NCBI GenBank assembly: GCA_946412355.1
Contig: CAMKGX010000009.1
Location: forward strand, 1-50,426
Length of the DNA: 50,426 nt
Source of the DNA: an uncultured Clostridia bacterium
Lineage (GTDB): Bacteria; Bacillota; Clostridia; Oscillospirales; Oscillospiraceae
Direction of reading: 5' to 3'
The notes beneath the pieces were generated by a model that saw only the letters and a program-made list of their open reading frames with translations, made no database searches and had not been told where the DNA came from. Shown piece after piece: positions 2,980 through 26,212 of the stretch. A program made the translations under genes and the position numbers. Every line of letters begins with the position of its first letter. Within the stretch, counting starts at the first letter, position 1.

Positions 2980-3066
2980 CGGATAGAGCTTTCAGTAGGT
3001 TGATTTGCATATGTGTCATAAATCATATAAATCTCCTCTGTACAATATCATCTATTACCCTTGAAG

Positions 3067-4227: not shown

Positions 4228-5222
4228 GGTTTACGAACCCTTCTGTTTATTCTTGTGATAAGAACGTGAATCGCAGATGCGGCAATCATTGTTAGTATTA
4301 TAACAACTGTACTATATAAAAACAAATTGTTATAAACCACGTCAACATTTTTAAAAATATTCAAGAACAATCCTTATACACCATATATCTCTAATGATCT
4401 ACATCCCAGCCATTTAAGAATAGGATTGAAAAACAGCACAATTCCATTTGTTCTACTTATCGTGTGAAAAAAACACAATATGCAGACTACAAAAGCCAGG
4501 GCAGATAGCATCTTAGATAAAACGCCAGCCAAACTTCCTCGTAACAAATACTCTCCATCAACCGTAAAAGCAAAGACAAATGATGCAATTACGGCACTAC
4601 TAAATTGAGTTATCTTGGCAAGCAGTTTCCCGTTCGATGCTAAAAGCATTCCTAATGGAAACGTCAAAACGCTCTTATATAATGTCTGCGATTGTTTGAA
4701 TATTATGTTTAATGCATAAAAGCCAATTGCAGATACTGAACATAGTCTCAAAGCTGCCTGGGGTTGTTCTGAAGCCACAAATGACACATAAAACAAAATA
4801 TACAGAATTAATGCTACCTGAAAATACCAACCATTAGAGATAATTGTCCCGCCATATGTCAGTGTCTTTACAACCAGCAGCCAGTCTGTCGGCCCGTACA
4901 TTATAACGTTTGATACGCAATACAAAGCCGTGAAGATAGCAACATCAAAATAGAATGTCAAAATCCTATTTCTAGGGAATTTATGTATGTAACGAGTACC
5001 CCCCCCCATGACCGATTTCATCAATCCATATCCGGAGATAAAGAAAAACATCGCTACAGAAAGATATCCCATCATTTGAAATATTGTACCAAGATTTGTA
5101 GCGTAGAAGCGCATACTCTTCTGAGATATATGATGCCACAGAACGCAGAGCGTAAAGACCCCCTTTAGGCAGGTTGTTGATTCTTTAGAGAGTATATTTG
5201 TTTCCTTAACTAGTAATTTCAT
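4224..5222 (-). pseudogene. acyltransferase-3 family O-acyltransferase, poly-G in frame but nonsense-truncated
   Basis: This is a multi-pass membrane acyltransferase of the acyltransferase-3 (OafA/WecH-like) type, expected to acylate sugar hydroxyls of the polymer. N-terminal landmarks are KGVFTLCVLWHH, with the family's conserved His, and FFFISGYGL. A run of nine G (coding strand) encodes Gly-Gly-Gly near residues 73-75 and keeps the frame open. The ORF stops at TAA (4376-4374) after SLEIYGV. The same frame continues after that stop with GLFLNIFKNVDVVYNNLFLY and ends at a TGA overlapping the next gene's ATG. Homologues usually read through here (LEIYxxHG/QG), so a CAA or CAG codon probably became TAA. 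Full length would be 332 residues. The visible product has 282 and lacks the last membrane segment. Confidence 0.8.
4999..5007 (-). repeat. poly-G tract (9 G on coding strand), acyltransferase 1
   Basis: Nine uninterrupted C on the plus strand (G on the coding strand) lie inside the acyltransferase gene at codons about 72-75, between SVM and TRYIHK. With nine G the upstream and downstream frames agree. Eight or ten would truncate the protein after about 75-100 residues. The tract's length and position match slipped-strand mispairing sites. Confidence 0.85.
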
Positions 5223-5608
5223 TTGCGTTGCCTCTGCTGCTTAAAACTTCGATAACTGGCTTAGTCATTAATTTGAATGCAAACGACATTAAAATAGTTG
5301 AAGCATATACAATCACAACATATATAATTTGATTGTCGATGCAGATAACATCATGCCAAAATGAAATTGCAATGCCGTGTGTCAGGTAAATAAATAAGGA
5401 AATGTTCGCCAAAACGCCACTGCTTACTGTCTTTTGTTTGATGTATGACAGAATGATAAAAACAGTAGGAAGCATAAAAAACGGTGCGAGCAACTTAAAA
5501 AAGATTCGAAACAGTGGCTGAGTTCCTATTCTTACCAAAATTGAGCTATTACCAAGTACAATGAAAACAGAACCTAAAAGAAAGCATACAATAAATCGTA
5601 TCGATGTA

Positions 5609-5618
5609 CCCCCCCCCC
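5609..5618 (-). repeat. poly-G tract (10 G on coding strand), acyltransferase 2
   Basis: Ten uninterrupted C on the plus strand lie at codons about 214-217 of the acyltransferase at 5206-6259. The reading frame changes exactly here. Nine or twelve G restore the full-length protein. Confidence 0.9.
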
Positions 5619-5631
5619 GTACAAATTTCAG

Positions 5632-5655
5632 GCTCACACGTATGCTCACACGTAT
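5632..5655. repeat. 12-bp tandem duplication next to the poly-G tract
   Basis: Two exact copies of GCTCACACGTAT stand head to tail, 13 bp to the right of the ten-C run (just upstream of the G run on the coding strand). At 12 bp the duplication is in frame (encoding TCEHTCE on the coding strand), so it does not cause the frameshift. It could be a second slippage or duplication site. Confidence 0.8.
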
Positions 5656-6291
5656 ATTGATCTTCTGCGACGAATAAACCCAATGCAACAGCAAGTATGG
5701 AATCGTACCACATTGGTTTTGCATCGATCATCACAGCTACAATTACATATACGACAAGAAAAAGTATAATAAGTATCTTCTTTAGGGCATTATTAATATG
5801 CAAAGAATATACCGCAAAGAACATCAGATAAACCAAAAGTGTGGCCTGTATATACCACCCATAGAATACATATGTTCCACCAAACACTATTGAGCGTAGC
5901 AAGTACCAGATATCTATTAATTCATGTAACAGCGTTTTCCTATATATAGCTGATATAATCAAGACAATACAGTATTGAAAATACAACAAGAACACACGAC
6001 GCGCAAGAAAGTTTTTTAAATAGTCGGGTTTTTTCAAGTATGCGGTCATCATCCCATACCCGGACATAAAGAAAAAGAAACAACAAATCAGTTGGCCTGA
6101 GACCATAAGAACAAAATTAATTCCGGGAATATCGGAAAGAATCGTATTTCCTCTGGCATGGATAATGACCAAATACAGTGCGAGAACGCCTCGCATGAGA
6201 TCGGTTTTGGTCTTTTTCAGACCACTTTCGGGGTAGTATTTTCTTAATAATTTTATCATCTTTCGTCCATTCTTGAGCAATAGAACAGTGA

Positions 6292-7206
6292 CTAATTATT
6301 TATGCTTTTCAATTTATGATTTATAAAATCTTTGACTAAGTATTTCTTCGATTTATGGAAATACTCAGATAAAACATATAATATGTATTCAAAAATATAT
6401 GAAGGAATACAACGATATATAATGTCGAACTGCGAGAAAAAATAATTTACTACTCCGTTTTTACTATTTGAATGTTTACTTCCATTTTCATCAGCTTCAA
6501 AAAAACCTCGTTTTGAGAAATCTACAATTAAATCCTCGCTTTCAAACAAACCAACCACATCGTCCTTAACCCACTTTCCACGAAAAACACCCATCCCTTG
6601 TTGATTATACCCATAATCAATAAACATGTCCTTCGATGTGCTTGCACAAAAAAACCTGTATTTACTTGAAAGCGCACCATAAATATTTGTATATAGTTCC
6701 CACTCCCATGGAGTGACTTTTGGCTTCCAGAAAGCCAAAAGAATATCAGTACGCCAAATTGCCGCTTGCATGTTGAGAGTATATTCACGTCCAGGTTGTA
6801 AACGACTATAGCCTTGATATCGTTCATCTGTTATTCCCGTTTTACCAAGTTCATAGTCACAGTTAAAATATGCAATATCAGGCTCTTTATCCATTATTTT
6901 CAAGATTCTGTCAATTTCATCATATTCCACCTTTTGTCGAATAAAGAAATCATCAAGCATCAATACGACAAATGGTGTTGACACTTGTCTAAGTACATTC
7001 ATAATACGAGCGCCATAATGGCATTTTTCTTGTGGTGGATGAACGCACTCAATATTTAGTCCTGGGAACGTGTAGTTTAGCGATTCGGTGTTTAATATTA
7101 GTCTAGCTTCTGGATTCCAATACTTCTTATAAAGTGTGAAAAAAGGTTCCCATAAATCTGCATAGGAATCACAGGAGTTTACTATAACAGTATATCTTTT
7201 ATCCAT
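6292..7206 (-). CDS. putative glycosyltransferase
   Basis: This is a 304-residue cytosolic protein with a glycosyltransferase-like plan. The N-terminus (KRYTVIVNSCDSYADLWEPF) resembles a nucleotide-sugar-binding strand-helix, and VVLMLDDFFI near residue 101 supplies an acidic D-D motif that could bind the metal and UDP-sugar. It ends in a basic, aromatic region that may touch the membrane. The start overlaps the flippase stop by 8 bases, so the two are coupled. I do not recognise a named family member. The sugar donor and linkage are unknown. Confidence 0.65.
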   Translation of the reverse strand: MDKRYTVIVNSCDSYADLWEPFFTLYKKYWNPEARLILNTESLNYTFPGLNIECVHPPQEKCHYGARIMNVLRQVSTPFVVLMLDDFFIRQKVEYDEIDRILKIMDKEPDIAYFNCDYELGKTGITDERYQGYSRLQPGREYTLNMQAAIWRTDILLAFWKPKVTPWEWELYTNIYGALSSKYRFFCASTSKDMFIDYGYNQQGMGVFRGKWVKDDVVGLFESEDLIVDFSKRGFFEADENGSKHSNSKNGVVNYFFSQFDIIYRCIPSYIFEYILYVLSEYFHKSKKYLVKDFINHKLKSINN

Positions 7207-8746
7207 GAATGCGCCTTCCCTTCTTTGTAATCCTACAAACGATGCTCACCACAATATTCTTCAGAAACGAAAATTCATCTTCATTTCGGTACAGAGCATA
7301 AAAGAATAGATTCGGTATTACTGCAACCAACAAACATAATACGACAAAACGTATTATCGTAATATCTTTCAAAACAACAACTGACAAAAGTTTAAGAATA
7401 ATTCCCGGAATAATTACTGAAATCAAATATTTCATTAAATACTTGAAATAAACAATTGTCTTTTCTCCGGTTATTCGTGTAAACGCAATCATCGGACGAC
7501 GTATAGACTGATATAGGCCCGAAATAATTGTTCCTAAGAAAACGCCTGTAATCCCAAGATATATAGCACCGACGATTGAAATCACAAGGTTGATTACAAA
7601 AGACGCAATGACGACGTACTGGTCATCATAAAAAATACCAAATCCAGTTTTATAGTTTTGGAAGGCAATTCTCTGTCCAAGCAGATAATAATCTATGCAG
7701 ATAAGTAACCATGCTATATCGCTGATCAGCATCGACTCGCCAAGCCAAAGTGTTATGAATGGCCCGCTAAGAGTATAAAATGCAATCGAGCAAAAGCCGT
7801 AGATCCAAAAAGACAAAAAGTTATAGGTTTTAAATACTGAATACTGCTTTTTTAAATCAGTAGTAGCAACCAAATTCCCAATACTTGGGATTGCTCCAAA
7901 AAAAATCATCTTCACGAACCCGTTAACGGCGTTCTTTATCAAGGTATAGTTTAAAAGCAGCCCAACCGTTCTAATACTAATAAAAGCAGAAATAATGATA
8001 TTGTCTGTTGAGTTAATTAGTACATCGCCCATCTTATGCCATACTAAAGCAATAACATTCTTCCTAATTTCCTGTTTTTTTTCTTGAGGCATTGGTTCGA
8101 TATTTTTGTCTTTAAGGAATCGGTACTTTTCCCCAAGATAAATGTGAAGAACAACCATTCTCACAAACTCAATTATTGTCCCCGCTATCAAGCACAACAG
8201 ATAATTGTGTGTTATTATGACTATGGCGATTCTACTCATTATTGATACAATATTAGTAATTGTATCAATATTTGTTAATATATATTTTTTCTGCTCGGCA
8301 TTAACTAGACTACACCTGTATGTTAAGAGATAAGAAACCGAGGTGCTAAAAAGCGAGATTAAATAGTATAGCCCAATATTGCCAACATCCCCGGGATCCT
8401 TTACAAGAACATCTAAAAACGGATAAACAAATAATCCCGCACCAAATACTACAAGGCCAATGTAGGTATAAAACTTTTTATACATAGCCATAACCGTTTT
8501 GATCGCTTCAATATCACCATTTGCGACCGGCTTGTATAAATTATAGTTCAATACAGTGCCTATTCCTAACTCTGCAAAGGAGAGTACACCCAGTATGTTG
8601 AAAAAAAGGCCATTTACGCCAAGATAATTCGCTCCTAAATACTTTATAAATACCGTCCGATAAATAAAATTAAGTATCATCGAAACAACGCTTGAGATAG
8701 CACCCCAACTAATATTTTTTAAGGTATTCTCCACTCTGCTGTTCAT
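7199..8746 (-). CDS. wzx: Wzx-type oligosaccharide flippase
   Basis: This 515-residue polytopic membrane protein belongs to the polysaccharide transporter (MOP/MviN-like) superfamily. It should flip the undecaprenyl-linked repeat unit across the membrane. Evidence is the N-terminal TLKNISWGAISSVVSMILNF, the FGAIPSIGNLVATTD segment, about 12-14 hydrophobic helices and a length near the family's usual 480-520. The ATG at 8746 lies within the 3' end of the upstream GT2 gene (38-bp overlap), and its stop overlaps the next gene. It is intact. Together with the polymerase at 17308 it defines a Wzx/Wzy pathway. Confidence 0.88.
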   Translation of the reverse strand: MNSRVENTLKNISWGAISSVVSMILNFIYRTVFIKYLGANYLGVNGLFFNILGVLSFAELGIGTVLNYNLYKPVANGDIEAIKTVMAMYKKFYTYIGLVVFGAGLFVYPFLDVLVKDPGDVGNIGLYYLISLFSTSVSYLLTYRCSLVNAEQKKYILTNIDTITNIVSIMSRIAIVIITHNYLLCLIAGTIIEFVRMVVLHIYLGEKYRFLKDKNIEPMPQEKKQEIRKNVIALVWHKMGDVLINSTDNIIISAFISIRTVGLLLNYTLIKNAVNGFVKMIFFGAIPSIGNLVATTDLKKQYSVFKTYNFLSFWIYGFCSIAFYTLSGPFITLWLGESMLISDIAWLLICIDYYLLGQRIAFQNYKTGFGIFYDDQYVVIASFVINLVISIVGAIYLGITGVFLGTIISGLYQSIRRPMIAFTRITGEKTIVYFKYLMKYLISVIIPGIILKLLSVVVLKDITIIRFVVLCLLVAVIPNLFFYALYRNEDEFSFLKNIVVSIVCRITKKGRRIHG

Positions 8747-9665
8747 TTTTTCTGTCCTCTATAATAATCCGATAGATCTTAAATACACTCATTATTAAAA
8801 GATAATGTATACGGTTCATATGCGATAGCATGCAGAATTCAGTAAAAGACAGTTTAACTTTTTTGAGCCTTTTTCGAACTGTATCGATACTATCTTCGCC
8901 GTTTCTTATTGAATTGTTTATTATGTAAATAGACTGCTCAACAAACGACTTGATTAACCGTTTGCGTATTTCGCCTGATTCGGCCTCACAGATATATCCC
9001 TTCACTTCAGTATCGCACAGGACTTTATTCCACGATTTTGTCGAAGACAATGAATGATCGCCGCTATTGTAAAAGTACAATTTTTCCAGCAAGAAAACGC
9101 ATTTGCAATTACTTCTGCAGGCAATATCATAATTAAATTTCAAGTCTTCGGCAATCGTAAGTTTCTCTGAGAATTGTATCCCTTTAATCTCTTCTCTTGC
9201 ATACAACTTATTCCAACAGCTGTAATTGAAATTATTGACTTTACTCCACAGCTCTTTATATGTCAAATATAGCCCTTCTTCTCCCTGAAGCGCATGCATG
9301 TATTCACTATAAAAACCACATACGGCAATTGATGCCGCATTCTCCTTTATTGCATAATACATTTTTTCATACATACGTGGTGAAATATAATCGTCGCTGT
9401 CTACAAAACCGATATATTTACCATTGGCATAATTCAATGCCATATTACGCGCTACGCTAACGCCTTCATTCAATTTATCAATTATTCTTATCCGAGGATC
9501 AAGTTCTGCATATTCATTGCAAATTATCAAAGAATTATCGTGAGATCCGTCATTTACAATAATCAGTTCAAAGTCTTTAAATGTTTGATTGCAAATACTA
9601 TCGATGCAACGTCTCAAATACTTTTCTGAATTATATACCGGAACTATTATACTAATCTCTGGCAT
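8709..9665 (-). CDS. family 2 glycosyltransferase
   Basis: This 318-residue GT-A fold enzyme begins with ISIIVPVYNSEKYLRRCIDS, the classic GT2 N-terminus. VNDGSHDNS follows, then the metal-binding acidic cluster GFVDSDDYIS near residue 93. It should add one sugar to the lipid-linked repeat on the cytoplasmic face of the membrane. The C-terminal third is helical and basic. It lies 23 bp downstream of a second, similar GT2 and overlaps the flippase. The donor sugar cannot be read from sequence. Confidence 0.88.
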   Translation of the reverse strand: MPEISIIVPVYNSEKYLRRCIDSICNQTFKDFELIIVNDGSHDNSLIICNEYAELDPRIRIIDKLNEGVSVARNMALNYANGKYIGFVDSDDYISPRMYEKMYYAIKENAASIAVCGFYSEYMHALQGEEGLYLTYKELWSKVNNFNYSCWNKLYAREEIKGIQFSEKLTIAEDLKFNYDIACRSNCKCVFLLEKLYFYNSGDHSLSSTKSWNKVLCDTEVKGYICEAESGEIRKRLIKSFVEQSIYIINNSIRNGEDSIDTVRKRLKKVKLSFTEFCMLSHMNRIHYLLIMSVFKIYRIIIEDRKNEQQSGEYLKKY

Positions 9666-9688
9666 ACTTCAATCTCCATCTATTCTGA

Positions 9689-10723
9689 TTAAATGTGCTT
9701 AGCTATAATACTCCACATATGGCATTTTATTAGATAGAAATAGATTGCTTTTTTTGCGCCCATCTCTTTACAAGCCAGTAATAATGATTTAAACGTTATG
9801 GCATTTGAAAAAAATATATCGCCAAATATTCTATTCAAGTTATTAGCATAGTCCTCGTTGAATCTAATCTCATTCTGAACAACCTCATTAACTGCAGCGA
9901 GCTGTAGTTTTATTATAAAGTGTTCTTTTTCCTTGTTTCTTAAATTATTATTCCTTTTTACAAGCTCAGTTTGCCTAATCGCCAGGTATTTGCTTCGTTT
10001 CTCTAACTCCGGATTATACTTGCCGAATGTAGTGCTTGTAGCAGACGCTGAGTTTGTCATTCGATAATGATACAAATACTCATCAACGATTGCAGCTCTT
10101 TCGCAATACAAAAGATACTCCATCAGAAACAATCTATCTTCTGCAATTTTCAAGCCGGTGGAAAATGTGATTTTGTGATTAACAATTATATTTCTTAAAA
10201 AAAGCGATCGGCAGACACTGCCAAATACACGATCACATATTAGCTTAGAATCAACAACCTGATTCTTTTTTTCATCTGTGTAGTATTTATAATCATATGG
10301 TCTTTCTATTAATAGTTCAAGATTAGATTCAAATCTGTACTGTGTTTTACCATCGTATTCATACGAGAATCTGCTGAAGACAATTGGACGGTTGCCAATT
10401 GCGGAGAGCATTTTTTCGTACATAGTATCTTCTATATAATCGTCACCATCAACAAATGCTATATATTTTCCACCCGCTATTGTCATCCCATTGTTCCTTG
10501 CAACACTTACTCCCGCATTTTCTTGATGGAGAACTTTTATACGACAATCCTTCTGTTTGAACTGATCGCATAGTTCACCACAATTGTCTGGCGATCCATC
10601 GTCAACGAGAATGATTTCTATGTTTCTATATGTCTGATTCCTTATGCTGTTAACACATTGCTTTAAATACTGCTCGACATTATATACAGGTACAATTACA
10701 GAAATTAGTGGGTTATCATTCAT
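9689..10723 (-). CDS. family 2 glycosyltransferase
   Basis: This 344-residue GT2 has ISVIVPVYNVEQYLKQCVNS at the start, ILVDDGSPDNCGE and the AFVDGDDYIE metal motif. I placed the start at 10723 because this ATG overlaps the stop of the upstream gene in an ATGA arrangement. The upstream in-frame ATG at 10762 would lie inside that gene. It is similar to the next GT2 downstream, so the pair may have arisen by duplication or may add similar residues. The acceptor and donor are unknown. Confidence 0.88.
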   Translation of the reverse strand: MNDNPLISVIVPVYNVEQYLKQCVNSIRNQTYRNIEIILVDDGSPDNCGELCDQFKQKDCRIKVLHQENAGVSVARNNGMTIAGGKYIAFVDGDDYIEDTMYEKMLSAIGNRPIVFSRFSYEYDGKTQYRFESNLELLIERPYDYKYYTDEKKNQVVDSKLICDRVFGSVCRSLFLRNIIVNHKITFSTGLKIAEDRLFLMEYLLYCERAAIVDEYLYHYRMTNSASATSTTFGKYNPELEKRSKYLAIRQTELVKRNNNLRNKEKEHFIIKLQLAAVNEVVQNEIRFNEDYANNLNRIFGDIFFSNAITFKSLLLACKEMGAKKAIYFYLIKCHMWSIIAKHI

Positions 10724-11634
10724 TTTTGCACTCTTTCTAAAAGCCATTTCATATCTTCCCACGTCTGATAAAGCTTTGATGGATCATACTCGTGATCCTT
10801 AATCAAATAGTCCAGAATCGTGGACGCTGGGGCAAACCAACCGTTTTGCGATGACAGGTAGTCGATGGTCTTCATAAACTCCTCGCTCAGGTTTCCGTTC
10901 TCATCGACAAAATCATACGCAAAATGCGTATAAACGATACAGCATCCATGCTCGGCTGCGAGTTTGTCAATCTTCTCCTTGGTCAGCAGCTTCAAAAACG
11001 CAATCAAACGCATCCCATCAGAGGAACTGAACCAATAATTTGAATACTCTTCTTTCCCTGTTTCTCTATAGACCAGTCTCGGATCGGCTTTCAATGTGTT
11101 TGTATCGTTGAATGTACGATTCCGGATAAAGCGAAAGTGCTCTTTTGCAAAATCGCCCCAAAAATAGTCACTATTCGGATCAGTCCCCAGAGACTTTATC
11201 TTAGACTGTCGCAGTTTATATAATGCTTTCACTAACGGTGAGAAGCGTTCCGCTCCCCAGTATAGATTTTCAACATTATTGCTGTGATTGATGTGAAGAG
11301 ACGGATACTCGCCCAGTTTCTCTCTATACTCTTCAAGTGCATTCAATGTTTCTTCCCGCTTAAACCCACCGGATCCAGCATTGTGGAAGCCAAGCTCAAC
11401 ACCATGTTCTTTCAGATAAAGCAGAAAATCTAGGTAGTCCTTATCCTGGAGACACTGACCTGTATAGACATTATCCCTCGATGGATATACCCAACATGTT
11501 TTAGTTGTTAATATACCATGATCAATCAAGTAATCATATACCGGTTTAATATTCGCTACCGTTGCGCCGTCGGTATCGTCTACTACTGTGAAGGCAAAGT
11601 CATGACCATCGGGCCACTTGATATTTCGTTTCAT
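10720..11634 (-). CDS. polysaccharide-deacetylase-like (NodB-like) protein
   Basis: This 304-residue protein has a NodB-like opening. FAFTVVDDTDGATV carries the double Asp expected at the metal/catalytic site, and HGVELGFHNAGSG later supplies a candidate His. No signal peptide is present, so it would act in the cytoplasm, perhaps on a precursor rather than on finished polymer. It lies directly after the LicC-like cytidylyltransferase with a 4-bp overlap, which suggests a shared task. The assignment rests on motifs only. It could be a non-deacetylase member of the fold. Confidence 0.65.
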   Translation of the reverse strand: MKRNIKWPDGHDFAFTVVDDTDGATVANIKPVYDYLIDHGILTTKTCWVYPSRDNVYTGQCLQDKDYLDFLLYLKEHGVELGFHNAGSGGFKREETLNALEEYREKLGEYPSLHINHSNNVENLYWGAERFSPLVKALYKLRQSKIKSLGTDPNSDYFWGDFAKEHFRFIRNRTFNDTNTLKADPRLVYRETGKEEYSNYWFSSSDGMRLIAFLKLLTKEKIDKLAAEHGCCIVYTHFAYDFVDENGNLSEEFMKTIDYLSSQNGWFAPASTILDYLIKDHEYDPSKLYQTWEDMKWLLERVQK

Positions 11635-12353
11635 TTATCACTCCCCCGGTTCGTGACGTTCCGATGTCTGAGTATTCTTCTGTAATCTTCAATCATATCA
11701 ACCTCAGCCCAGAATTTGCCAGCAATATCGTGAACATAGATATTTAATTCCGGTAGCATATCGTACATAACACTTTCCCACCAAACTGAATGCTTTTGAT
11801 GATTAATCATGTCAATCATGTGTTCACGATATACAGGGATAAAATCTGCACTAAGTTTTGCCATTCCAAGATTCTCACCTGTCGTATCCGCTATGGATAA
11901 ATCCTTACCATGTCTCATAAGAATACCGTTTTCAAAATGGAACCTGTAGTCTGCATCAACTATCCTCGTAGAGTCTACAAGGAGAACAGGACTTTTCTGT
12001 TCTCCAATCAGCTCATCAAGAATCGCAGGTTCTATGTAAAGATCCCCGCTCATGACAATAGTATCTTCTTCATTAAGCAAATCTTTTGCGAACCACATAG
12101 ACGCGATGCCATTCGTTACATCGTAAAATGGATTGTAGATATATTTTACCGCATCATCTTCAATAACAGACCTAATATAATCAGCTTTATAGCCAACACA
12201 AATTGAGATATCTTCAATTCTTCTGCTTTTCAGAAGATTAATCGTATACTGCAGAAGTGTTATTCCTCCGATATCAACCATGGACTTCGGCTTTTCTTCT
12301 ATGAATCTGCTGATCCGCGTCCCCATCCCGGCGGCTAAAATAATACCTTTCAT
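11631..12353 (-). CDS. LicC-like sugar/choline-phosphate cytidylyltransferase
   Basis: This 240-residue nucleotidyltransferase opens with GIILAAGMGTR and EKPKSMVDIGG, the nucleotide-binding signature of the sugar-1-phosphate/LicC family. YNPFYDVTNGIASMWFA and VMSGDLYIEP resemble phosphocholine cytidylyltransferases. It would activate choline-phosphate or another phospho-alcohol with CTP. It lies 10 bp behind a licD gene, whose product would transfer the activated group onto sugar. The natural substrate could instead be another small phosphate ester. Expression is probably coupled to its neighbours through short overlaps. Confidence 0.72.
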   Translation of the reverse strand: MKGIILAAGMGTRISRFIEEKPKSMVDIGGITLLQYTINLLKSRRIEDISICVGYKADYIRSVIEDDAVKYIYNPFYDVTNGIASMWFAKDLLNEEDTIVMSGDLYIEPAILDELIGEQKSPVLLVDSTRIVDADYRFHFENGILMRHGKDLSIADTTGENLGMAKLSADFIPVYREHMIDMINHQKHSVWWESVMYDMLPELNIYVHDIAGKFWAEVDMIEDYRRILRHRNVTNRGSDK

Positions 12354-12363
12354 ATACTACCTC

Positions 12364-13164: not shown

Positions 13165-14317
13165 AATGTGTTCTTTCCTCAATTACATATTCATATACTT
13201 TTCTAAGTTCTTCAGCTGATTGATCCCACGTATACCGCATGCTTGTTTCTCTTGCGCGCATCGACATTTGTTTTAACTCTTCGGATGTCATACTGCCAAT
13301 TTTTAATAATACATTTGATATTGAAACACTTGATTGCGGCTCAACAAGAAATCCATTAATACCATTTTCAATTATTTCATCTATACCTTGCCCTTTTACT
13401 CCTACTGTAATCATTCCAGCAGACATGGCCTCAAGGTACACACATCCTAAGGCCTCATAGAAGGACGGTAAAACAAAAATATCCTTTTCCTCCATATATT
13501 TAGATATTACTTCATACGGGACATAGCCTGCAAAAGTGCTGTCAATTTGCTTCTCCAAGCATAGCTTTTCAAGCGCTGGTTCATCTGGTCCGCTACCTGC
13601 AAACAACAATGATGGTTTTAATCCGTTGATAGTCATTCCTGACAATGCATCAATTAAGTACTTCTGTCCTTTTATCGGAATCATATTACCCACACAAAGG
13701 ACTTCATATTTCTCTCTACAAAAAGACCTATCATCAACGTGAAAAAGATCAACATCAACACCGTTGTAAACTATGAACGACGGAACACCTTTAATTCTAG
13801 TTTGAAAAACATTCTTCACTTTCCCGCTCACATTCACAGTAGCGTCAATCTTGGAATACAAAATACTCTTTAATATATTATTGTATTTGGTAAGTAGTGG
13901 ATGACTATCAAAATAATCGCCCCAAATATTAAGACCGTGAAAATGTAGAATCAGAGGAACCCCTTGTTTTTTGCATACAGCATAAACTGATTGTAAGGCG
14001 CTAAAACTTCCAAAGTGGAAAGATACGCAATCGTATTCGTTTGATAATACCAAATAAAGCTTTGATTCGTCTTTACTTGATAGTCTTTTTGGGAACAACA
14101 CATCTATTTTTTTACTTTTACTAACAATCTTTCGAACAAATACTCGAATGCCATGAATCACATAATCTTTATCTGTTACAACTTCGTTATCCTTAAAATA
14201 ATAAACGTCCACTCCTACTCCTTGTTTCTGAAGAGCCTTCGCCTGCTGTTCTAAAAAAATACAGTATTGAGGTTGCTCTGGCGTGGGATAGCAGTCTGTT
14301 ACAAATAGAATTCTCAT
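13151..14317 (-). CDS. family 4 glycosyltransferase
   Basis: This 388-residue GT-B enzyme has an N-terminal domain starting MRILFVTDCYPTPEQPQYC. The C-terminal nucleotide-sugar domain contains EVLCVGNMIPIKGQKYLIDA and FVLPSFYEALGCVYLEAMSA, the latter with the E-x7-E motif. It is a retaining sugar transferase acting on the lipid-linked intermediate. The start ATG overlaps the stop of the preceding gene by 4 bp. It is intact and of normal length. The donor is not determinable. Confidence 0.88.
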   Translation of the reverse strand: MRILFVTDCYPTPEQPQYCIFLEQQAKALQKQGVGVDVYYFKDNEVVTDKDYVIHGIRVFVRKIVSKSKKIDVLFPKRLSSKDESKLYLVLSNEYDCVSFHFGSFSALQSVYAVCKKQGVPLILHFHGLNIWGDYFDSHPLLTKYNNILKSILYSKIDATVNVSGKVKNVFQTRIKGVPSFIVYNGVDVDLFHVDDRSFCREKYEVLCVGNMIPIKGQKYLIDALSGMTINGLKPSLLFAGSGPDEPALEKLCLEKQIDSTFAGYVPYEVISKYMEEKDIFVLPSFYEALGCVYLEAMSAGMITVGVKGQGIDEIIENGINGFLVEPQSSVSISNVLLKIGSMTSEELKQMSMRARETSMRYTWDQSAEELRKVYEYVIEERTHYERL

Positions 14318-15489
14318 ATACGCTCACTTCGTATCCAATCATTTTGGATAATGTCCGCTTTGCTGCAAGGACCATTTTTATATAATTCTATATCACCGTT
14401 TCCATCCAAAAGATTTTGACATAATTCAATCAGCCTTCGTGCTGCAATTTGATGATTCCATACATCCGTGATTGTTTGATAAGCTGCTTGACCTATTTCT
14501 TTCTGTTTGAATGGATTATTAATCAATTCCTTCACTATATTTGCTAAGTCTTCTATATTACCATTTTCGTAAATATATCCATTCTTACCATTATCTATCA
14601 AAAAAGGTGCCGAACCAACTGCATGACTCGCTACTACGGCACAACCACTATTCATTGCTTCGTTTACAATCGCTCCCCACCCTTCCTGAAAGTCTGAAGT
14701 ACATATTAAAATCCCCGCATTTTCCATATTCAGTCGCACCTCATTGGGGGGCATAGCCCCAACGCATGTTATATGGTCTTCTACTCCCCTCTGTGTTATT
14801 ATTTTTTTTAAATGCGAAGCTTCTTCTCCTTCTCCGATAACTCTTATCGCAAAATCTTCTCCCGTCTTTTTTAGCAGATTCGCCAGTTCTACAGCCGTTT
14901 CGGGATGCTTCCAACCTATCAGCCTACCTACCCAAAGGATTAGACGTTGGTTTTTACTAGCCTGCAGCTCATCAATAGAATGATAGCGTTTATACTCTGG
15001 AAAGTACCCCCACTTATAACATTTATTCAAATAATTATGAAATAATGCTCCATCAGCAGAAGTATACGCACTTGCGCACAACATAAACAGCGGATAGTTC
15101 TGATACCGTCCATGATGCAGCCAAGTTCCAACTAGTATTCTTGGAAGAGTTCGAAGATTAATTCCTTTTTTATAAAATCTTTCTGAGTATTTAAATGTTA
15201 ATTTTCTGAGCTTCAAACGGTTTCTTATCAGATAATCTGGAGCTGAGCCGATTACAACAACACTTGCAGTATTTATCCATTCTATCAATTCGGTCTTTCG
15301 AACTTTGAACTCAGCAGCGCTTACCAAGAAAGGATAATCTTCCATTTCAGCCTTCCATCCGATAGGAATATTGTCGCTCCTTTCGATTGTCTCAATAAAG
15401 CAAAACCCACGTCCTAATAAATGATATAATTCTCTGCAAAGTGGAATTTGATGTGGAGTCAAAAAATTAGAGATAAATACGATATCCAT
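14314..15489 (-). CDS. family 4 glycosyltransferase (fused in this copy to the upstream acetyltransferase)
   Basis: This GT-B glycosyltransferase has about 390 residues from MDIVFISNFLTPHQIPLCRE. Its donor domain carries LILWVGRLIGWKHPETAVEL and EGWGAIVNEAMNSGCAVVA, with the usual E-x7-E pair. As sequenced, it is in frame with the upstream acetyltransferase, giving one 558-codon ORF to 15990. I treat it as a separate gene because a one-base change in a six-G run upstream creates the fusion, and because an ATG lies five bases after the stop that a five-G version would use. No separate strong ribosome binding site is visible, so translation probably depends on coupling. Donor sugar unknown. Confidence 0.75.
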   Translation of the reverse strand: MDIVFISNFLTPHQIPLCRELYHLLGRGFCFIETIERSDNIPIGWKAEMEDYPFLVSAAEFKVRKTELIEWINTASVVVIGSAPDYLIRNRLKLRKLTFKYSERFYKKGINLRTLPRILVGTWLHHGRYQNYPLFMLCASAYTSADGALFHNYLNKCYKWGYFPEYKRYHSIDELQASKNQRLILWVGRLIGWKHPETAVELANLLKKTGEDFAIRVIGEGEEASHLKKIITQRGVEDHITCVGAMPPNEVRLNMENAGILICTSDFQEGWGAIVNEAMNSGCAVVASHAVGSAPFLIDNGKNGYIYENGNIEDLANIVKELINNPFKQKEIGQAAYQTITDVWNHQIAARRLIELCQNLLDGNGDIELYKNGPCSKADIIQNDWIRSERI

Positions 15490-15494
15490 TTTAG

Positions 15495-15990
15495 CTATAG
15501 TATCCGTGCCGATACCCCCCACTACAACGCTATTGTCAGGAACATCTTTGTCCACATAAGTATTAGCACCAATTTTCACATTATCACCTATTTTAATTGC
15601 CCCAACCACAACCGCCCCAGCGCCAATCTGTACGTTATCTCCGACTATAGGCATATATCGTCCATTATTCTCTTTTCTATTGCTTCCAATTGTGACATTT
15701 TGAAAAATCTCACAGTTTTTTCCGATAACCACTTCGTGACCTATAACAATTCCTACACTGTGGTGCACTCGAAACCCTTCACCAATATCAGCATAGGGTG
15801 ATATTTCACAAGAATATTTTGTTAACATTCGCTTCTTAATAAGGTCCGGGATGAACATAATATGATGTCTAAACCAGTGCCCAACCCTGTACAACCTAAT
15901 TAAGCAAAATGTATGTGCTGTTAAATATGCCCTTAGCACTCCTTTCCAATTCAAACCAAATGCCTTCATATCAGACAAATAATAATTCAT
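15495..15990 (-). CDS. serine-acetyltransferase-like (hexapeptide) acyltransferase, lost stop by frameshift
   Basis: This left-handed beta-helix acetyltransferase resembles serine O-acetyltransferase and sugar acetyltransferases of EPS loci. It contains hexapeptide repeats such as EVVIGKNCEIFQNVTIGS and IVGDNVQIGAGAVVVGAIKI. The natural end is expected to be VVVGVxARIL then stop. With five G the sequence reads VVVGVSARIL and stops at TAG (15497-15495), giving 164 residues. The window has six G, so the protein instead reads VVVGGIGTDTIAK and runs into the glycosyltransferase. It probably acetylates a sugar precursor or the polymer. The start ATG overlaps the upstream gene by 4 bp. Confidence 0.72.
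15515..15520 (-). repeat. six-G run that fuses two ORFs
   Basis: The coding strand reads GTGGGGGGTATCGG. Six G join the acetyltransferase to the glycosyltransferase. Five G would end the first protein with the family-typical tail VGVSARIL. Confidence 0.75.
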
Positions 15991-17240
15991 TTCAAAACTC
16001 CCCTAGTTGATCTGCTGGTAACTAAATGTCGCAGATATTTATAACATTTTAAATATCCATTAACCATAGTTTCCGACGAGTACTTTGCTACCGCCAGTTC
16101 TGGGAGGCACTGATCTTTTTCCCTATGAATAAACTGCTCAATACACAAAGTGAGATTGTCTAAATCTCCATAATCCACAAACCTGCTGTGCTCTGAAACT
16201 GAAATGTGTTCCGGCCCGCCAGCTCTAAAACCAACTACGGGCGTACCACAGCATAGGCTTTCGGCGGTAACCATGGAAAAAGTTTCTCGCTTGCTGGTCA
16301 GAACTGTGACGTCAGCCATCGAATAGTACTGGGCCAAAGTCTTCTGATCGCTGACACGTCCAAGCAGAATTACGTTATCCGGAGCCTTCATTTCACCAAC
16401 AACCGGACCGGCAACTAAAAATGTGACTTCCGGCATCCTTCTTGCCAGATCTATAATGAAATGCCCGCCTTTGATATGATCAGGCGACATTGAAAACGCC
16501 GGTGTCGCATGAAAAACAATCTTTTTCCCAGTCAAGCCCAGCTTCTCTCGCAGCGCCGCTGTATCATATGGGTGAAAGACCTCTGTATCAAGTCCGTTAA
16601 GGACTACGCAGTGATCTTTGTCCGCTAAAATCGGCGATTGCTTTGCGCGTTCCATCAGCCAAGGAGAAACTGAAGTCACGATCAAGTCATCAAAACCATC
16701 GAATGCATCTTTCATGCGTCTCCACATAGTCGCTGTACGGTCAAAAAACAGCGACTTCGTTTCCGCGCGCCAGCGCGGACAATGTGTGGAGTGACCGCAT
16801 CCTGTGCGGGTACTCCATTGATTACAGTCAATGGAGTACCCGCATCCTCCGGTATACATGAATTCGGCATGTAGCGTCAGTACCGTTTTCTGATGGTGCT
16901 TTTTGAGCCAATTCACGAGTCGGTAGATATTTACGAAATACCCATTGATGCACTGCAAATGAACGATGTCCGGTTGTTCTTTCTTTATTATTGAAATCAG
17001 GCGATTGGTTGAAAAGAAACAGCCGCCATACATAATGCCTGTTATCCTTGACCAGGCGTTATTCAGCTTGGAATACCATTCCGGGCAAGTCTTATATACT
17101 CCCGGCTCCTTTATTAGTTCACCGCGTCCATAGCAGACCACGGACTCGATGCCCTTGGCCTGCAAGCCCTGATGCAAATCATATGTAATTTTTCCTGTGC
17201 TTCCCTTTTTATAGACACAGTTCACTTGTAAAACTTTCAT
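15987..17240 (-). CDS. family 4 glycosyltransferase
   Basis: This 417-residue GT-B enzyme starts MKVLQVNCVYKKGSTGKITY. A Cys-rich insertion (TGGCGYSIDCNQW and TGCGHSTHCPRW) is typical of a subset of EPS glycosyltransferases. The C-terminal domain has VTAESLCCGTPVVGFRAGG. I selected the ATG at 17240 because GGAG lies seven bases upstream. The in-frame extension up to 17336 overlaps the polymerase gene and does not look like family sequence. It lies directly downstream of the Wzy-like polymerase gene. Confidence 0.88.
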   Translation of the reverse strand: MKVLQVNCVYKKGSTGKITYDLHQGLQAKGIESVVCYGRGELIKEPGVYKTCPEWYSKLNNAWSRITGIMYGGCFFSTNRLISIIKKEQPDIVHLQCINGYFVNIYRLVNWLKKHHQKTVLTLHAEFMYTGGCGYSIDCNQWSTRTGCGHSTHCPRWRAETKSLFFDRTATMWRRMKDAFDGFDDLIVTSVSPWLMERAKQSPILADKDHCVVLNGLDTEVFHPYDTAALREKLGLTGKKIVFHATPAFSMSPDHIKGGHFIIDLARRMPEVTFLVAGPVVGEMKAPDNVILLGRVSDQKTLAQYYSMADVTVLTSKRETFSMVTAESLCCGTPVVGFRAGGPEHISVSEHSRFVDYGDLDNLTLCIEQFIHREKDQCLPELAVAKYSSETMVNGYLKCYKYLRHLVTSRSTRGVLK

Positions 17241-17307
17241 TATACTCCAAATCAATTCAGTAAACTCTGTCCCATCTTTCACTGTTATGTGGACACGATT
17301 TTGTAGT

Positions 17308-18483
17308 CTATAGTGCGGCTTCTGCTTCCCAGTCATATCGTGCCAATATTAGATATGAACAAGCAATCGCATACATTCCCATGCTACCATAGAACAACCC
17401 GTTTTCCCCGTTTCCCATAAAGATGGTGCCAAAGAAGCATATTAAGCAAATCGCTTGTAATGAATTTTGCATTGTCTGATTTGCGTTTCTTATAACATCA
17501 ACTAAAAATTTCACCAATAAGACTATACCAATAATCCCATATGATCCAAGTATAGTCATGTGAGTATTATGAAGATTTCCGCGTAGATGAGCAAAATCAC
17601 CCGTTAGCCAATAAACTCCTTTTAAGGTATTAAACACATTTCTCCATACTTCAACTCTACTTGTAATTGGTTTACCTTCTTCAACTATAAAATCAAGTCT
17701 CCCTGTAGAGCCAATCGTTTCTATAAATAGTAAATATGCAATTGCAAAAATCAAAGGCATAATTGAGACTATAAAGAACGATAATGGGTGAAACTTTCTA
17801 ATCCTTTTAATTTTTATATATATTATTCCAGCAACTACAAACAAAACGGTAAGAATGCTATTTCTTGCAGCTGACAAAATTAGAAAGTAGAAATCAAATC
17901 CAAATGCAATCATAGATATAACTTTAACAAATCTTTTTTTTATTAGTATGATACCTAAAATTGCACACAAACACGCTTGCGCTAAGTACATCCCTGCTAA
18001 ATTTGGTGATGAAAAATGCATCGTTAAAAGCAGAGAACCCATTCTTCTGTATTCGTTTGCTCCGAGGAAAAAATAACATATTGGATAAAGAAGCGTCGAT
18101 GTCATTCCTATATATAGAACAGAATTTGCAACTTCTTTAGTTACAAAAATACTACTTGCTGCCATCATAAACATTATTGTTGCGGCAAATGTAAAAAAAC
18201 TAATTAAATCCTCGAATGTAATTATTTTATCTCCACTTACATATGAAAAAGCAATCGATATCACGCACCATATAAGAAGAAGCAAACCGAACGATGTCGT
18301 CTCGCATTTACAATATGAAGACAGATAAAGGAGAATCAAATTGACAAAGCTTAAGGAAAACATAGCGCTGGCCAAAGATTGTGAATTAATAAGAGTAAAA
18401 AGGATAATAAGAGTACTTATTATTAATTGAATTGAAAGAAATACTCTATAGTCTAGTACATAATTGTGTATTCGCAATTTCAT
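17308..18483 (-). CDS. wzy: Wzy-like polysaccharide polymerase
   Basis: This 391-residue membrane protein has roughly ten to eleven hydrophobic segments and a large loop before the last helices (about residues 255-300, containing GSTGRLDFIVEEGKPITSR and FNTLKGVYWLTGDFAHLRG). That organisation fits O-antigen polymerase/ligase family members, which join repeat units on the outer face of the membrane. Such proteins have little sequence identity, so the call rests on topology and context. A single flippase and a single candidate polymerase make a complete Wzx/Wzy set. The gene is very AT-rich, as is common for wzy. Confidence 0.75.
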   Translation of the reverse strand: MKLRIHNYVLDYRVFLSIQLIISTLIILFTLINSQSLASAMFSLSFVNLILLYLSSYCKCETTSFGLLLLIWCVISIAFSYVSGDKIITFEDLISFFTFAATIMFMMAASSIFVTKEVANSVLYIGMTSTLLYPICYFFLGANEYRRMGSLLLTMHFSSPNLAGMYLAQACLCAILGIILIKKRFVKVISMIAFGFDFYFLILSAARNSILTVLFVVAGIIYIKIKRIRKFHPLSFFIVSIMPLIFAIAYLLFIETIGSTGRLDFIVEEGKPITSRVEVWRNVFNTLKGVYWLTGDFAHLRGNLHNTHMTILGSYGIIGIVLLVKFLVDVIRNANQTMQNSLQAICLICFFGTIFMGNGENGLFYGSMGMYAIACSYLILARYDWEAEAAL

Positions 18484-18530
18484 CTTTTCCTATGCTCCAC
18501 TAATTAATTACATGTAAAGCTTACATTATT

Positions 18531-19811
18531 TTACGTTATAGCATTATGAACATAATATATTATTTCTTTCATTCTGTTGGAATTAGTTATAGGATTATGC
18601 TCTGCTTCTGCTTGCCTAATCGCATTTCGAATAAATTCTTCTCGCAATGATTCATTATTTATTAGATTAACCAATGATGTCTCGATATCGTTGGCATTTT
18701 CTATTACCAATCCGAGATTGTGTTCCTTAAAATATCTGATACTAGCAATTTTTTCGCTTCCATAAATTATCGAACACACGCCCGAAGCGAGCATATCTGC
18801 TATTTTTGTTGAGAAAGCATACTCTAGATCCTTCACGTTCCAAGGTCTCTGGCTTTCGATATGGAGGACAAAGTCACTGTTCTTTATTTCAGTTTGTAAT
18901 TGTTCATATGTTACTGGTCCATGAAGGTGAATGCCGTTTTCAGGTATAAGCGCTGACATATGTGCCCCTGTGCTTGAAGTAAATACGTCAATATGAAACC
19001 CCAATTTTTTTACTACGCACCCTATCTCAACAAGCGGTTCGCAACGGCCAACGGTTTCTCCTAGATTTCCTCCGTAAATAAAACGCACATGATGTTTGTC
19101 AAAAACTCGTGGGCTTTTCTCTGGTTTGATATTTGTGGCTTTCATTATTGTCTCACAGGGAACATTAAAAAACCGTTTATAGCTATCTTCGATTGCCTCG
19201 CACAAATAGACGCAATATGATGTTTGTTTCATCAATCGTTCATAAGATCTCTTAAAGTCATATCGGAATAGTCTATAAAACAATGTCTTTTTTTCATATT
19301 CCTTCAGATAGTATGTCTCCGATTGATGCACAACAATGGGCAGTCTATATTTATTTGCGAGAAAAACAGCCATATCCAGCAGATAAGAGAAATCTCCCGG
19401 CTGCACAAGAATCACTTGAGGGTTATACTTTTCTATCCATACTTGAAATTCTTTAGTGTTCCAAAGTTGGGTACTCCAAAGCAGTTTTCTTCCTAGCATT
19501 GCAATGTCTCTATGCTTGTGTCCGCCAGCCGCTGAGACTCTGGCTGCAGTTCCCAAATCTGCTTCATTGACGAGTTCTACAGTCTTTCCAACAGTGCCCT
19601 TTATTGGATGCATAATTTTTTGAACAAGCTCATTATCTGTCACTCGGAAGAAGTGTTTGCATACATGAATGTTTGGATTCATTTCCTTAATGTAGAACTG
19701 TGCAACGTTGTCCGGATTGTACGTCATGAAATAAGTTGCCAGTGTGCTTCCCATGGAGTCTTCTTTTGAAAACGCTGTATGGCTGATTACAAGTACTCTT
19801 GGATATTCCAT
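18531..19811 (-). CDS. family 4-like glycosyltransferase
   Basis: This 426-residue protein has GT-B features. The N-terminal half contains VLVISHTAFSKEDSMGSTLA and VILVQPGDFSYLLDMAVFLA. The C-terminal half has RFIYGGNLGETVGRCEPLV and FSTKIADMLASGVCSIIYG, positioned like the donor-binding domain. AGAGGG lies five bases before the ATG. It should transfer one sugar of the repeat unit. The motifs differ from the standard E-x7-E glycosyltransferases here, so the exact family is less certain. No lesions are seen. Confidence 0.72.
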   Translation of the reverse strand: MEYPRVLVISHTAFSKEDSMGSTLATYFMTYNPDNVAQFYIKEMNPNIHVCKHFFRVTDNELVQKIMHPIKGTVGKTVELVNEADLGTAARVSAAGGHKHRDIAMLGRKLLWSTQLWNTKEFQVWIEKYNPQVILVQPGDFSYLLDMAVFLANKYRLPIVVHQSETYYLKEYEKKTLFYRLFRYDFKRSYERLMKQTSYCVYLCEAIEDSYKRFFNVPCETIMKATNIKPEKSPRVFDKHHVRFIYGGNLGETVGRCEPLVEIGCVVKKLGFHIDVFTSSTGAHMSALIPENGIHLHGPVTYEQLQTEIKNSDFVLHIESQRPWNVKDLEYAFSTKIADMLASGVCSIIYGSEKIASIRYFKEHNLGLVIENANDIETSLVNLINNESLREEFIRNAIRQAEAEHNPITNSNRMKEIIYYVHNAIT

Positions 19812-19909
19812 TTTTCCCTCTTATTAAACATCTGTGGTCGCTCGGTTGTCTCACATATTTGACGGATTAATCCATTTCTTTCGCTGTACTAATTGTCAGT
19901 TCTTATATA

Positions 19910-20891
19910 TTACATTTGAAAGTCTCGCATGATCGTTTTTATAGCAATATGACTCAATGCGGCAATACCTATGGTAAGGGCAAAGAACAGCAAGGCATTT
20001 ATAAACGTCAGGTCTACCATCCACAGGGTATAGCCATGGGTCAGATAGATCTCATAAGAAACGACCCCCAGATAATACAATGGGGCAAGAAGCCGTTTTC
20101 CTACTGCCGCTGGGATGATCAACAACGAAACTGCGAAGCCGGTAGCCATAAGCATATCCAGGCAGTTTTGGATCTGCGCAGGTGTTGTGCGGAACACTGG
20201 GATTTGCTTGATTCCGAGCAGCATGATAGCCAGCACCGCAATACCACAAATCACTTTATTCTTCTTTAATACCGCAAACCACGACTTATAATCTGACAAC
20301 GCAACGCCAAGGATGAATGTCAATGCCTGTCTTGCATACAACATGCGCATGAAAAGCAGAATAACGAGCCCTATTAGAATCCACGCACTGTAACGGACCT
20401 TCTGATCCTTTATAAATCGCATTCCGAAGTAGTACAGCGCATACCACGCAAACTGATATGTAATATACCATCCGAGATAGTACTTAGAGTGAACCGCTGT
20501 CAAATCAACCAGTACATCCCATACCGAGGAATACCCCCCCCCGAATAGGAATTGTTGCCACCTCAATGATCAGGTAAGGGATATAGACCGATACAAAACG
20601 CTTCTTCCAATAGTCCTGATATCCATTTTTCTTCCACGACTCATTGATCCCATACCCAGACAGGATTAAAAACATAGCAACGCCTATGCCGCCAAGAGGA
20701 GTCAAATAACGTATATGAAAGTATTCTCCAAGATGTCCATATACAACGATGGCAATTGCCAGACCTTTTCCGATCATCGAGTAATCTTTGCTGAACGGAA
20801 GATTGACAAGTAACTCTTTCTTTCGGAGGGCAACAGCTGCCGTAACAAAAAACACGGAGAAGATCGCAAGATACATCAATGCAGCTTTCAT
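19910..20891 (-). pseudogene. acyltransferase-3 family protein, poly-G phase-OFF
   Basis: This is a third acyltransferase-3 gene with a homopolymer switch. The first part (from ATG 20891) encodes IGKGLAIAIVVYGHLGEYF, with the conserved His, and FLILSGYGINESW. It then goes out of frame after nine G and stops at 20505. The second part, in another frame to 19910, carries YYLGWYITYQFAWYALYYF, later helices and SYEIYLTHGYTLWMVDL. Eight (or eleven) G would produce one 326-residue protein reading IPIRGGYSSVWDVLVDL. Both halves are otherwise undamaged, so a reversible OFF state is likely. Substrate and acyl group are unknown. O-acetylation of the polymer is the usual role of the family. Confidence 0.85.
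20534..20542 (-). repeat. poly-G tract (9 G on coding strand), acyltransferase 3
   Basis: Nine uninterrupted C on the plus strand lie at codons about 117-119 of the acyltransferase at 19910-20891. The frame breaks exactly here. Eight or eleven G restore it. Confidence 0.9.
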
Positions 20892-20935
20892 GGTTTGTTC
20901 ATCATCTTTCGTACATGTTTGTAGTTTATATATGC

Positions 20936-21730: not shown

Positions 21731-21778
21731 CTATTTTCAGCCCTTAATAATGCTAATTCAATTAGTTGATTAGTGAAC

Positions 21779-22840: not shown

Positions 22841-22842
22841 AT

Positions 22843-24544: not shown

Positions 24545-24559
24545 CTATTAACCTCTATC

Positions 24560-25369: not shown

Positions 25370-25391
25370 ATTATCTTCCCTCAAATACAGG

Positions 25392-26210: not shown

Positions 26211-26212
26211 AC

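Follow-up and report, generated by a model that had tools for sequence, protein, structure and literature searches.

Poly-G runs in three acyltransferase genes of a surface-polysaccharide locus from an Oscillospiraceae bacterium as candidate contingency sites

Poly-G runs of 9 or 10 bases lie inside three acyltransferase-3 (AT3) genes of one surface-polysaccharide locus, raising the question of whether these genes are switched by changes in run length or are simply falling into decay. The locus (1942..29493, minus strand) was identified by Pfam and NCBIfam scans in a window of 50,426 nucleotides, i.e., the whole stretch of DNA analyzed here. It includes four AT3 genes together with genes for a polyprenyl glycosylphosphotransferase, glycosyltransferases, two LicD proteins, nucleotidyltransferases, an epimerase, and an aminotransferase; PF02397 is matched with an E value of 1.6e-56, and the glycosyltransferases are many. 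Wzx-like (E value, 1.2e-5) and Wzy-like (Wzy_C; E value, 0.002) proteins are also encoded, both as weak matches under the cut-off. The host is represented by a metagenome-assembled genome (MAG) of Oscillospiraceae whose closest relatives are MAGs from goat forestomach and cattle, a placement that fits the gut Clostridia origin proposed in the initial annotation.

A recount of the window placed three C runs on the plus strand (i.e., G on the coding strand, minus) at 4999-5007 (9 bases), 5609-5618 (10 bases), and 20534-20542 (9 bases), and PF01757 matches confirmed that they lie in three different AT3 genes, as originally described. Second to them in length among all G/C runs of the window is a C8 at 38520-38527, and no plus-strand run of more than six G was found in the whole window. 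The claim that the locus holds no other run of this length also stands: across 21 other coding sequences of the locus, the longest G/C run is 6, and the tripeptide GGG is absent. The runs had been assigned to three different codon positions; read in the upstream frame, gene 3 (base 2) does differ, whereas genes 1 and 2 are alike (base 3).

Across the genome (2,062,587 bases; 92 contigs), there are four G/C runs of at least 9, three of which are the AT3-gene runs; the fourth is a 13-G run at C4:1904-1916, intergenic by our reading of that region. AT3 genes make up 0.196% of this genome yet contain three of the four runs (P of about 3e-8, or about 5e-4 when the same placement statistic is restricted to the window). 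Dinucleotide-shuffled versions of the window contained a mean of 0.52 G9 matches and reached the observed 4 in 1 of 100 shuffles. The count of runs by itself is therefore a modest excess, and their placement in AT3 genes is the strong part of the case. Upon synonymous recoding with the codon usage of the locus, a run of at least 9 was retained in 0.6 to 2.8% of 20,000 recodings per AT3 piece. For the run of gene 1, which lies in a loop after an SGYG motif, a conserved glycine motif was considered as the source and rejected, as four aligned homologues have other residues in this loop.

None of the four AT3 genes, all on the minus strand, reads full length in this genome. Two are interrupted at their runs (genes 2 and 3), one by a nonsense codon past an in-frame run (gene 1), and one without a run (gene 4). 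Gene 1 (4374..5222; 282 amino acids) scores 51.7 bits for PF01757, whose curated cut-off is 31 bits. Three-frame reading shows its frame to pass unshifted through the run, as had been reported, but an in-frame TAA follows downstream at 4374-4376, 49 codons short of the likely end of the gene; after this stop, another 49 open codons run up to a TGA (4224-4226), which overlaps the start codon (ATG) of the following gene. The suggestion that the locus could take up to eight states presupposes three working genes and is not sustained, given this nonsense codon beyond the run. Gene 2 (5206..6259; earliest ATG of the frame at 6259) consists of two frames, 5549-6280 and 5206-5724, that are both open around the run, with PF01757 scores of 39.4 bits before the run and 23.1 bits, under the cut-off, after it. 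Gene 3 (19910..20891) likewise consists of two frames open around the run, 20505-20891 and 19910-20566, scoring 47.1 bits ahead of the run and 32 bits beyond it. Gene 4 (22843..23840), which is absent from the initial annotation, has no run of 9 and is interrupted by a TAA at 23478-23480; PF01757 is matched at 61.2 bits by the first part only, a match was also read across the TAA, the last part is without an AT3 match, and the gene is likely a pseudogene. An additional frame change near 23395 was judged by eye.

We consider it likely that the three runs are slippage-prone contingency sites in AT3 genes, and O-acylation of the polysaccharide of the surrounding locus is the probable role of the encoded enzymes. 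As in simple-repeat contingency loci, a slippage-prone repeat (9, 10, and 9 G) lies inside the reading frame. Slips of the polymerase would change a run by one or more G, and the enzyme would be complete in one of the three length classes and cut short in the remaining two. A population would in this way come to mix cells with differently acylated coats, possibly a defense against phages or antibodies by which the coat is recognized. In favor of this reading, genes 2 and 3 are shifted at the run only, with frames open on either side, which bears out the earlier observation of two genes out of frame exactly at the run and otherwise intact. Against it stand the nonsense codon of gene 1, the break of gene 4 without a run, and AT3 genes elsewhere that break without poly-G (in four other genomes, i.e., G004, G139, G272, and G020), as well as the presence of MutS and MutL, which should slow slippage; the assembly, itself a MAG, also gives a single consensus length for each run. 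Matches to MutS_I and MutL were found in all 24 genomes tested, and loss of mismatch repair was accordingly rejected as the origin of the runs.

The interruption of all four AT3 genes, two of them through ordinary lesions, and the AT3 genes broken without poly-G in the four other genomes would also fit a loss of function, in which acylation is no longer valued in this strain and the four genes are becoming pseudogenes, with the runs as the first frameshift sites. Such decay leaves unexplained why AT3 genes contain the sole coding runs of at least 9 in this genome, why AT3 runs recur in five further species, in two of which the frame is kept, and why genes 2 and 3 lack a second lesion; we regard it as unlikely. 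Far less probable is an error of sequencing or consensus calling, by which genes 2 and 3 would only appear shifted and all of the runs would be fixed and in frame. Homopolymers are the usual site of length errors, the genome is fragmented (92 contigs), and its closest named records are MAGs. An error, however, does not give AT3 genes, alone among the genes of this genome, a run of 9 or 10 G, and runs in many other assemblies show like behavior.

Among 300 genomes of the family, runs of 9 to 11 G were found in AT3 genes of five further species; two of these genes are in frame and three are shifted, with no further break seen in the shifted ones. The search pattern, G9TAY, was chosen after four runs had been seen, a point against the contingency reading. 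Reading 78 of 82 G9TAY places among the matches listed gave eight AT3 genes with runs, i.e., the three described here and five elsewhere; the five outside the window compare with an expectation of 0.28 when AT3 genes are counted generously. G9TAY had 83 matches against 24 for the reversed control (hand-summed). A special G9TAY motif was rejected: the excess lies in part in promoter -10 boxes and therefore does not reflect one motif. A local AT3 HMM applied to six-frame pieces of the run loci found the genes of G056, G268, and G023 and missed those of G192 and G051, which were detected by Pfam; this HMM is too insensitive to exclude further AT3 genes.

Runs also occur in other polysaccharide genes of related species. 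In G051, a member of another genus, four 9-G runs lie within one polysaccharide locus. In the sister species G320 and G244, orthologous runs hold their position in genes other than those of the window, with lengths of 10/9, 10/9, 10/9, and 9/9, so that three of four differ. These length differences in DNA, and the variation of run position, length, and frame between genes and species, argue against slippage at the level of expression, in which DNA lengths would be fixed and a slipping RNA polymerase or ribosome would supply a low, constant dose of full-length enzyme with no heritable switch. Frames that remain open on either side of the runs in genes 2 and 3 would suit such a mechanism, and transcript slippage can arise at long homopolymers, although it is known mostly at A/T runs; we find this explanation scarcely credible here. 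The AT3 runs of five other species, the four-run locus of G051, and the differing orthologous lengths thus strengthen the original proposal of a contingency system for polysaccharide acylation, which gene 1, with its nonsense codon, and gene 4, broken without a run, weaken.

Closer relatives did not add to this comparison. Among 32 genomes of the genus, the DNA of positions 4200-8800 matched its own genome alone and was absent from the 31 others; a search of genome contigs with P0003 found no relative, and P0001 and P0004 had no relatives among viral contigs. No strain with the locus was thus found among the genomes searched, and no length variant of the window's runs was seen, which counts against contingency. 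Homologues without runs had been named as a sign that the genes are simply dead. The homologues of genes 1 and 2 do lack the runs, but at just 22 to 38% identity they show no more than that AT3 genes have not carried the run since long ago.

A survey of runs across the genus covered 36 regions taken from the matches listed, leaving out G029, G030, and most of G027. Among these, the 10 G-strand frames scanned (G023 apart) had no Pfam match within an E value of 0.01, and 4 of 10 C-strand frames matched families, namely, AAA, D12 DNA methylase, peptidase M20, and PNPase. We therefore make no claim that the poly-G runs of this genus are generally coding or generally located in surface genes. Runs of at least 22 in G003 adjoin N stretches, and the run of such length in G027:C20 begins at a contig end. 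At the family level, the evidence leaves us evenly divided on whether Oscillospiraceae carry an unrecognized, family-wide set of poly-G switches. Such a set would comprise AT3, hexapeptide, pyruvyl, methyl, and glycosyl transferase genes of surface polysaccharides, DNA methylases, type I specificity subunits, and -35/-10 spacers; it would favor polysaccharide acyltransferases, and three or four runs per locus would give many coats per strain.

Similar AT3 runs in relatives suggest that these gut bacteria toggle their surface decoration via copying slips, a trick familiar mainly from pathogens. The rumen commensal described here combines three runs in a single locus, and several more exist in its relatives. 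If the runs do switch, slippage-based coat variation would be part of ordinary gut life and would matter to phage resistance and to the way hosts recognize commensals; existing metagenome reads allow this to be tested.

Poly-G runs occur within surface-carbohydrate contingency genes of Campylobacter and Neisseria, which differ in being Gram-negative; Campylobacter is not known to carry MutS and MutL, both of which are present in the host genome here. The initial annotation knew of no described system of this kind in the group, a statement that can stand for this bacterial family at most: phase-variable AT3 acetylation in Haemophilus influenzae and Salmonella and a slipping 9-G run in an exopolysaccharide gene of Akkermansia are on record (PMC6479036, PMC9558356, PMC13055324). 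The oafA gene of nontypeable H. influenzae encodes a phase-variable O-acetyltransferase of lipooligosaccharide, i.e., an AT3 gene switched by an intragenic repeat, with states that are favored in different niches of the host (PMC6479036, PMC9558356). It differs in its GCAA repeat, single gene, Gram-negative pathogenic host, and lipooligosaccharide substrate, compared with poly-G in three genes here; the repeat described here is a mononucleotide rather than a tetranucleotide of the oafA type and works alike without being a member. Salmonella oafB resembles our case in that AT3 acylation of a surface polysaccharide (O-antigen) is turned on and off, with ties to phage interactions and immunodominance, but its control is epigenetic instead of an intragenic run (PMC9558356). 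Gardnerella, like the host a Gram-positive resident, has many variable homopolymer tracts, some upstream of genes; these are Actinobacteria of the urogenital tract, and AT3 genes are not named in the available part of that report (PMC11287997). In the gut commensal Akkermansia muciniphila, a length change in the 9-G run of the surface-polysaccharide gene Amuc_1413 occurred in culture, shifting the reading frame and costing the cells their mucin binding, and 8-G and 10-G variants occur in other genomes; runs of this length can therefore slip (PMC13055324). Amuc_1413 is a single gene from another phylum and encodes a putative exopolysaccharide export or biosynthesis protein, not an acyltransferase (PMC13055324). 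The kind of system is already known, from oafA of Haemophilus and the 9-G exopolysaccharide gene of Akkermansia.

The window locus encodes a polyprenyl glycosylphosphotransferase, many glycosyltransferases, two LicD proteins, an epimerase, an aminotransferase, and several nucleotidyltransferases, one of them clearly IspD-like, together with Wzx-like and Wzy-like proteins that gave weak matches only. Based on these profile scans, it is classified as a predicted surface-polysaccharide locus; "capsule" is a reasonable though unproven name for its product, and the putative role of its acyltransferase-3 (AT3; PF01757) proteins in modifying the polymer of the surrounding locus is likewise unproven. 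The prolyl-tRNA synthetase of the window is 99% identical to those of Oscillospiraceae MAGs from the reticulum and abomasum of goats and 98% identical to that of MAG RUG11024, which, going by the RUG naming, we take to be from cattle rumen. Long overlapping open frames occupy both strands at 32892-38405 (1775 aa on the minus strand; 863 and 855 aa on the plus strand), and the 1775-aa frame had no Pfam match.

A run scan of the window found the three poly-G runs where the initial annotation had placed them, i.e., 9 G at 4999-5007 (gene 1), 10 G at 5609-5618 (gene 2), and 9 G at 20534-20542 (gene 3). These account for three of the four G/C runs of at least 9 in the genome (2,062,587 bases). The remaining one (13 G at G000:C4:1904-1916, in stretch L001) is intergenic by reading, and the frame downstream resembles an MFS transporter by eye. 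Matches to PF01757 in this genome are confined to the window (four minus-strand genes, five matched pieces). Two genes had been described as out of frame exactly at the run and a third as in frame: the run does divide both gene 2 (5206-6259) and gene 3 (19910-20891) into two open frames, and gene 1 (4374-5222), though in frame at its run, has a TAA beyond it, at 4374-4376. After this TAA, across which the Pfam match continues, 49 codons are open before a TGA overlapping the ATG of the next gene. The post-run part of gene 2 scored 23.1 bits, under the Pfam cut-off. Gene 4 (22843-23840), which lacks a run of 9, contains one TAA and a second frame change (by eye), and its last part had no AT3 match in the profile scan. 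Since all four AT3 genes are interrupted, the genome as assembled holds no full-length AT3 gene. The reference set, 21 further coding sequences from the locus, consists of single open frames of at least 238 aa.

The number of runs alone represents a modest excess (mean of 0.52 in shuffles of the window, with the observed 4 reached in 1 of 100). Their placement in AT3 genes, unlike their number, goes beyond this: AT3 genes make up 0.196% of the genome yet hold three of its four runs (P about 3e-8; P about 5e-4 when only the window is counted). The longest G/C run in the 21 other locus genes is 6, and when the AT3 pieces were recoded with synonymous codons (20,000 trials each), a run of at least 9 persisted in 0.6 to 2.8% of the trials.

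The main rival to reading these runs as contingency sites, i.e., slippage-prone runs that switch a gene on or off, is decay of the AT3 genes. AT3 genes of relatives are broken without poly-G by frame changes (G139:C3 about 92502; G272:C25 about 15076, near an A7 run; G004:C78 about 15003) or by a TAA (G020). AT3 genes in Oscillospiraceae seem to break often, and the nonsense codon of gene 1 and the lesions of gene 4 are of this ordinary kind. Also counted against switching were the presence of MutS and MutL genes, the single consensus length at each run in the assembly, and the finding that most runs of at least 9 in the genus at large could not be assigned to a known gene family. Homologues were sought in 300 family genomes, six of them from the genus, including the genome itself. 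Family homologues of genes 1 and 2 have 22-38% identity (33% at best over 200 residues); the pre-run part of gene 3 is 40% identical to a G323 sequence over 91 residues, and its post-run part had no homologue outside the window among the 300 genomes. None of these homologue loci has a G/C run of >6, and, in an alignment with four homologues, GGG in gene 1 replaces ordinary residues of a variable loop after SGYG. Among AT3 loci of the whole genus, identity to gene 1 reached 31% at best, and the DNA of 4200-8800 is absent from all 31 other genus genomes searched.

The pattern G9TAY (nine G followed by TAC or TAT) was picked post hoc, the window's three runs and one in G023 having been seen first. 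It matched in 47 of the 300 family genomes, with 83 matches versus 24 for the reversed control (hand sum). Of 82 listed places, 78 were read (the window, L064, and L069-L138), leaving out G319:C119, G133, G095, and G296. Eight lie in AT3 genes, i.e., the three in the window and those of G023, G192, G268:C20, G051, and G056. Pfam confirmed the G023, G268, and G051 genes and the second of two AT3 domains in G192, which contains the run; the G056 assignment has a weaker basis (local HMM E of 3.3e-5 before the run; 18.1 bits after it, under the cut-off). The G023 and G192 genes are in frame, and the other three are shifted, the G051 shift being inferred because of an upstream ATG behind AAGGAG; in each of these three, the two frames combined give the usual AT3 length without a second break. 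The five AT3 runs outside the window compare with 0.28 expected among 80 runs (P about 1e-5), assuming a deliberately high seven AT3 genes per genome. Other polysaccharide genes also carry runs: a stretch of about 9 kb in G051 contains four runs of 9 G, in GT2, GT8, C-methyltransferase, and AT3 genes; a hexapeptide-repeat transferase (G088; 11 G) and a pyruvyl transferase (G268; 10 G) are shifted; and the runs in an FkbM methyltransferase (G191) and an RmlD-like epimerase (G244) are in frame.

Between the sister species G320 and G244, at loci other than AT3 genes, runs keep their place and change in length. The two share four orthologous run loci with flanks 85-96% identical and lengths of 10/9, 10/9, 10/9, and 9/9; the pairs differing by one G are L101/L115 (a short distance upstream of a frame for a LytTR response regulator), L104/L116, and L106/L117. 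Elsewhere, 9-11 G stand immediately 5' of TATAAT or TACAAT (L094:1501, L124:121, L096:1501, L100:1905, L107:2006, and others), and in several cases a box resembling TTGACA or TTGAAA lies 16-18 bases upstream of that hexamer (about 20 in L096). Poly-G in such promoter spacers is a candidate transcriptional switch; 12 sites were listed from L033-L138, with L074 and L099 being one site and L092 and L069 doubtful. Dam-family DNA adenine methylase genes (PF05869) in L083 and L086 have 10-G runs at two different points, both shifted, and a related piece in L084 has 9 G at the contig end, which suggests that runs arose repeatedly in this gene. The runs at L126:1444 and L128:1943 (minus-strand positions), L097, and L132 lie inside genes for type I restriction specificity (PF01420; 11 and 13 G) or close to the end of N6/N4 DNA methylase genes (PF01555; 10 and 11 G).

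We consider it probable that the window runs are genuine poly-G contingency sites. What makes them interesting is the commensal host, the repeated targeting of acyltransferases, and the possibility of testing the switch with existing reads alone. Open-access literature yielded no paper on homopolymer phase variation in Oscillospiraceae or on phase variation by simple sequence repeats in Ruminococcaceae, and no match listed for related phase variation concerned Oscillospiraceae, which argues only weakly for a true absence. Phase variation of AT3 acetylation is established, being reported for Haemophilus influenzae oafA through GCAA repeats (PMC6479036) and for Salmonella oafB under epigenetic control (PMC9558356). 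Many variable homopolymer tracts are reported in Gardnerella (PMC11287997), and a 2010 survey that sampled Clostridia among other groups argued that homopolymeric tracts are a general mechanism (PMC2831843). A putative exopolysaccharide gene of Akkermansia muciniphila, a gut commensal, contains a run of 9 G that reportedly became 10 G in culture in 4 of 9 mutants sequenced, and mucin binding was lost (PMC13055324); this slippage speaks for the mechanism and makes the present case less novel.
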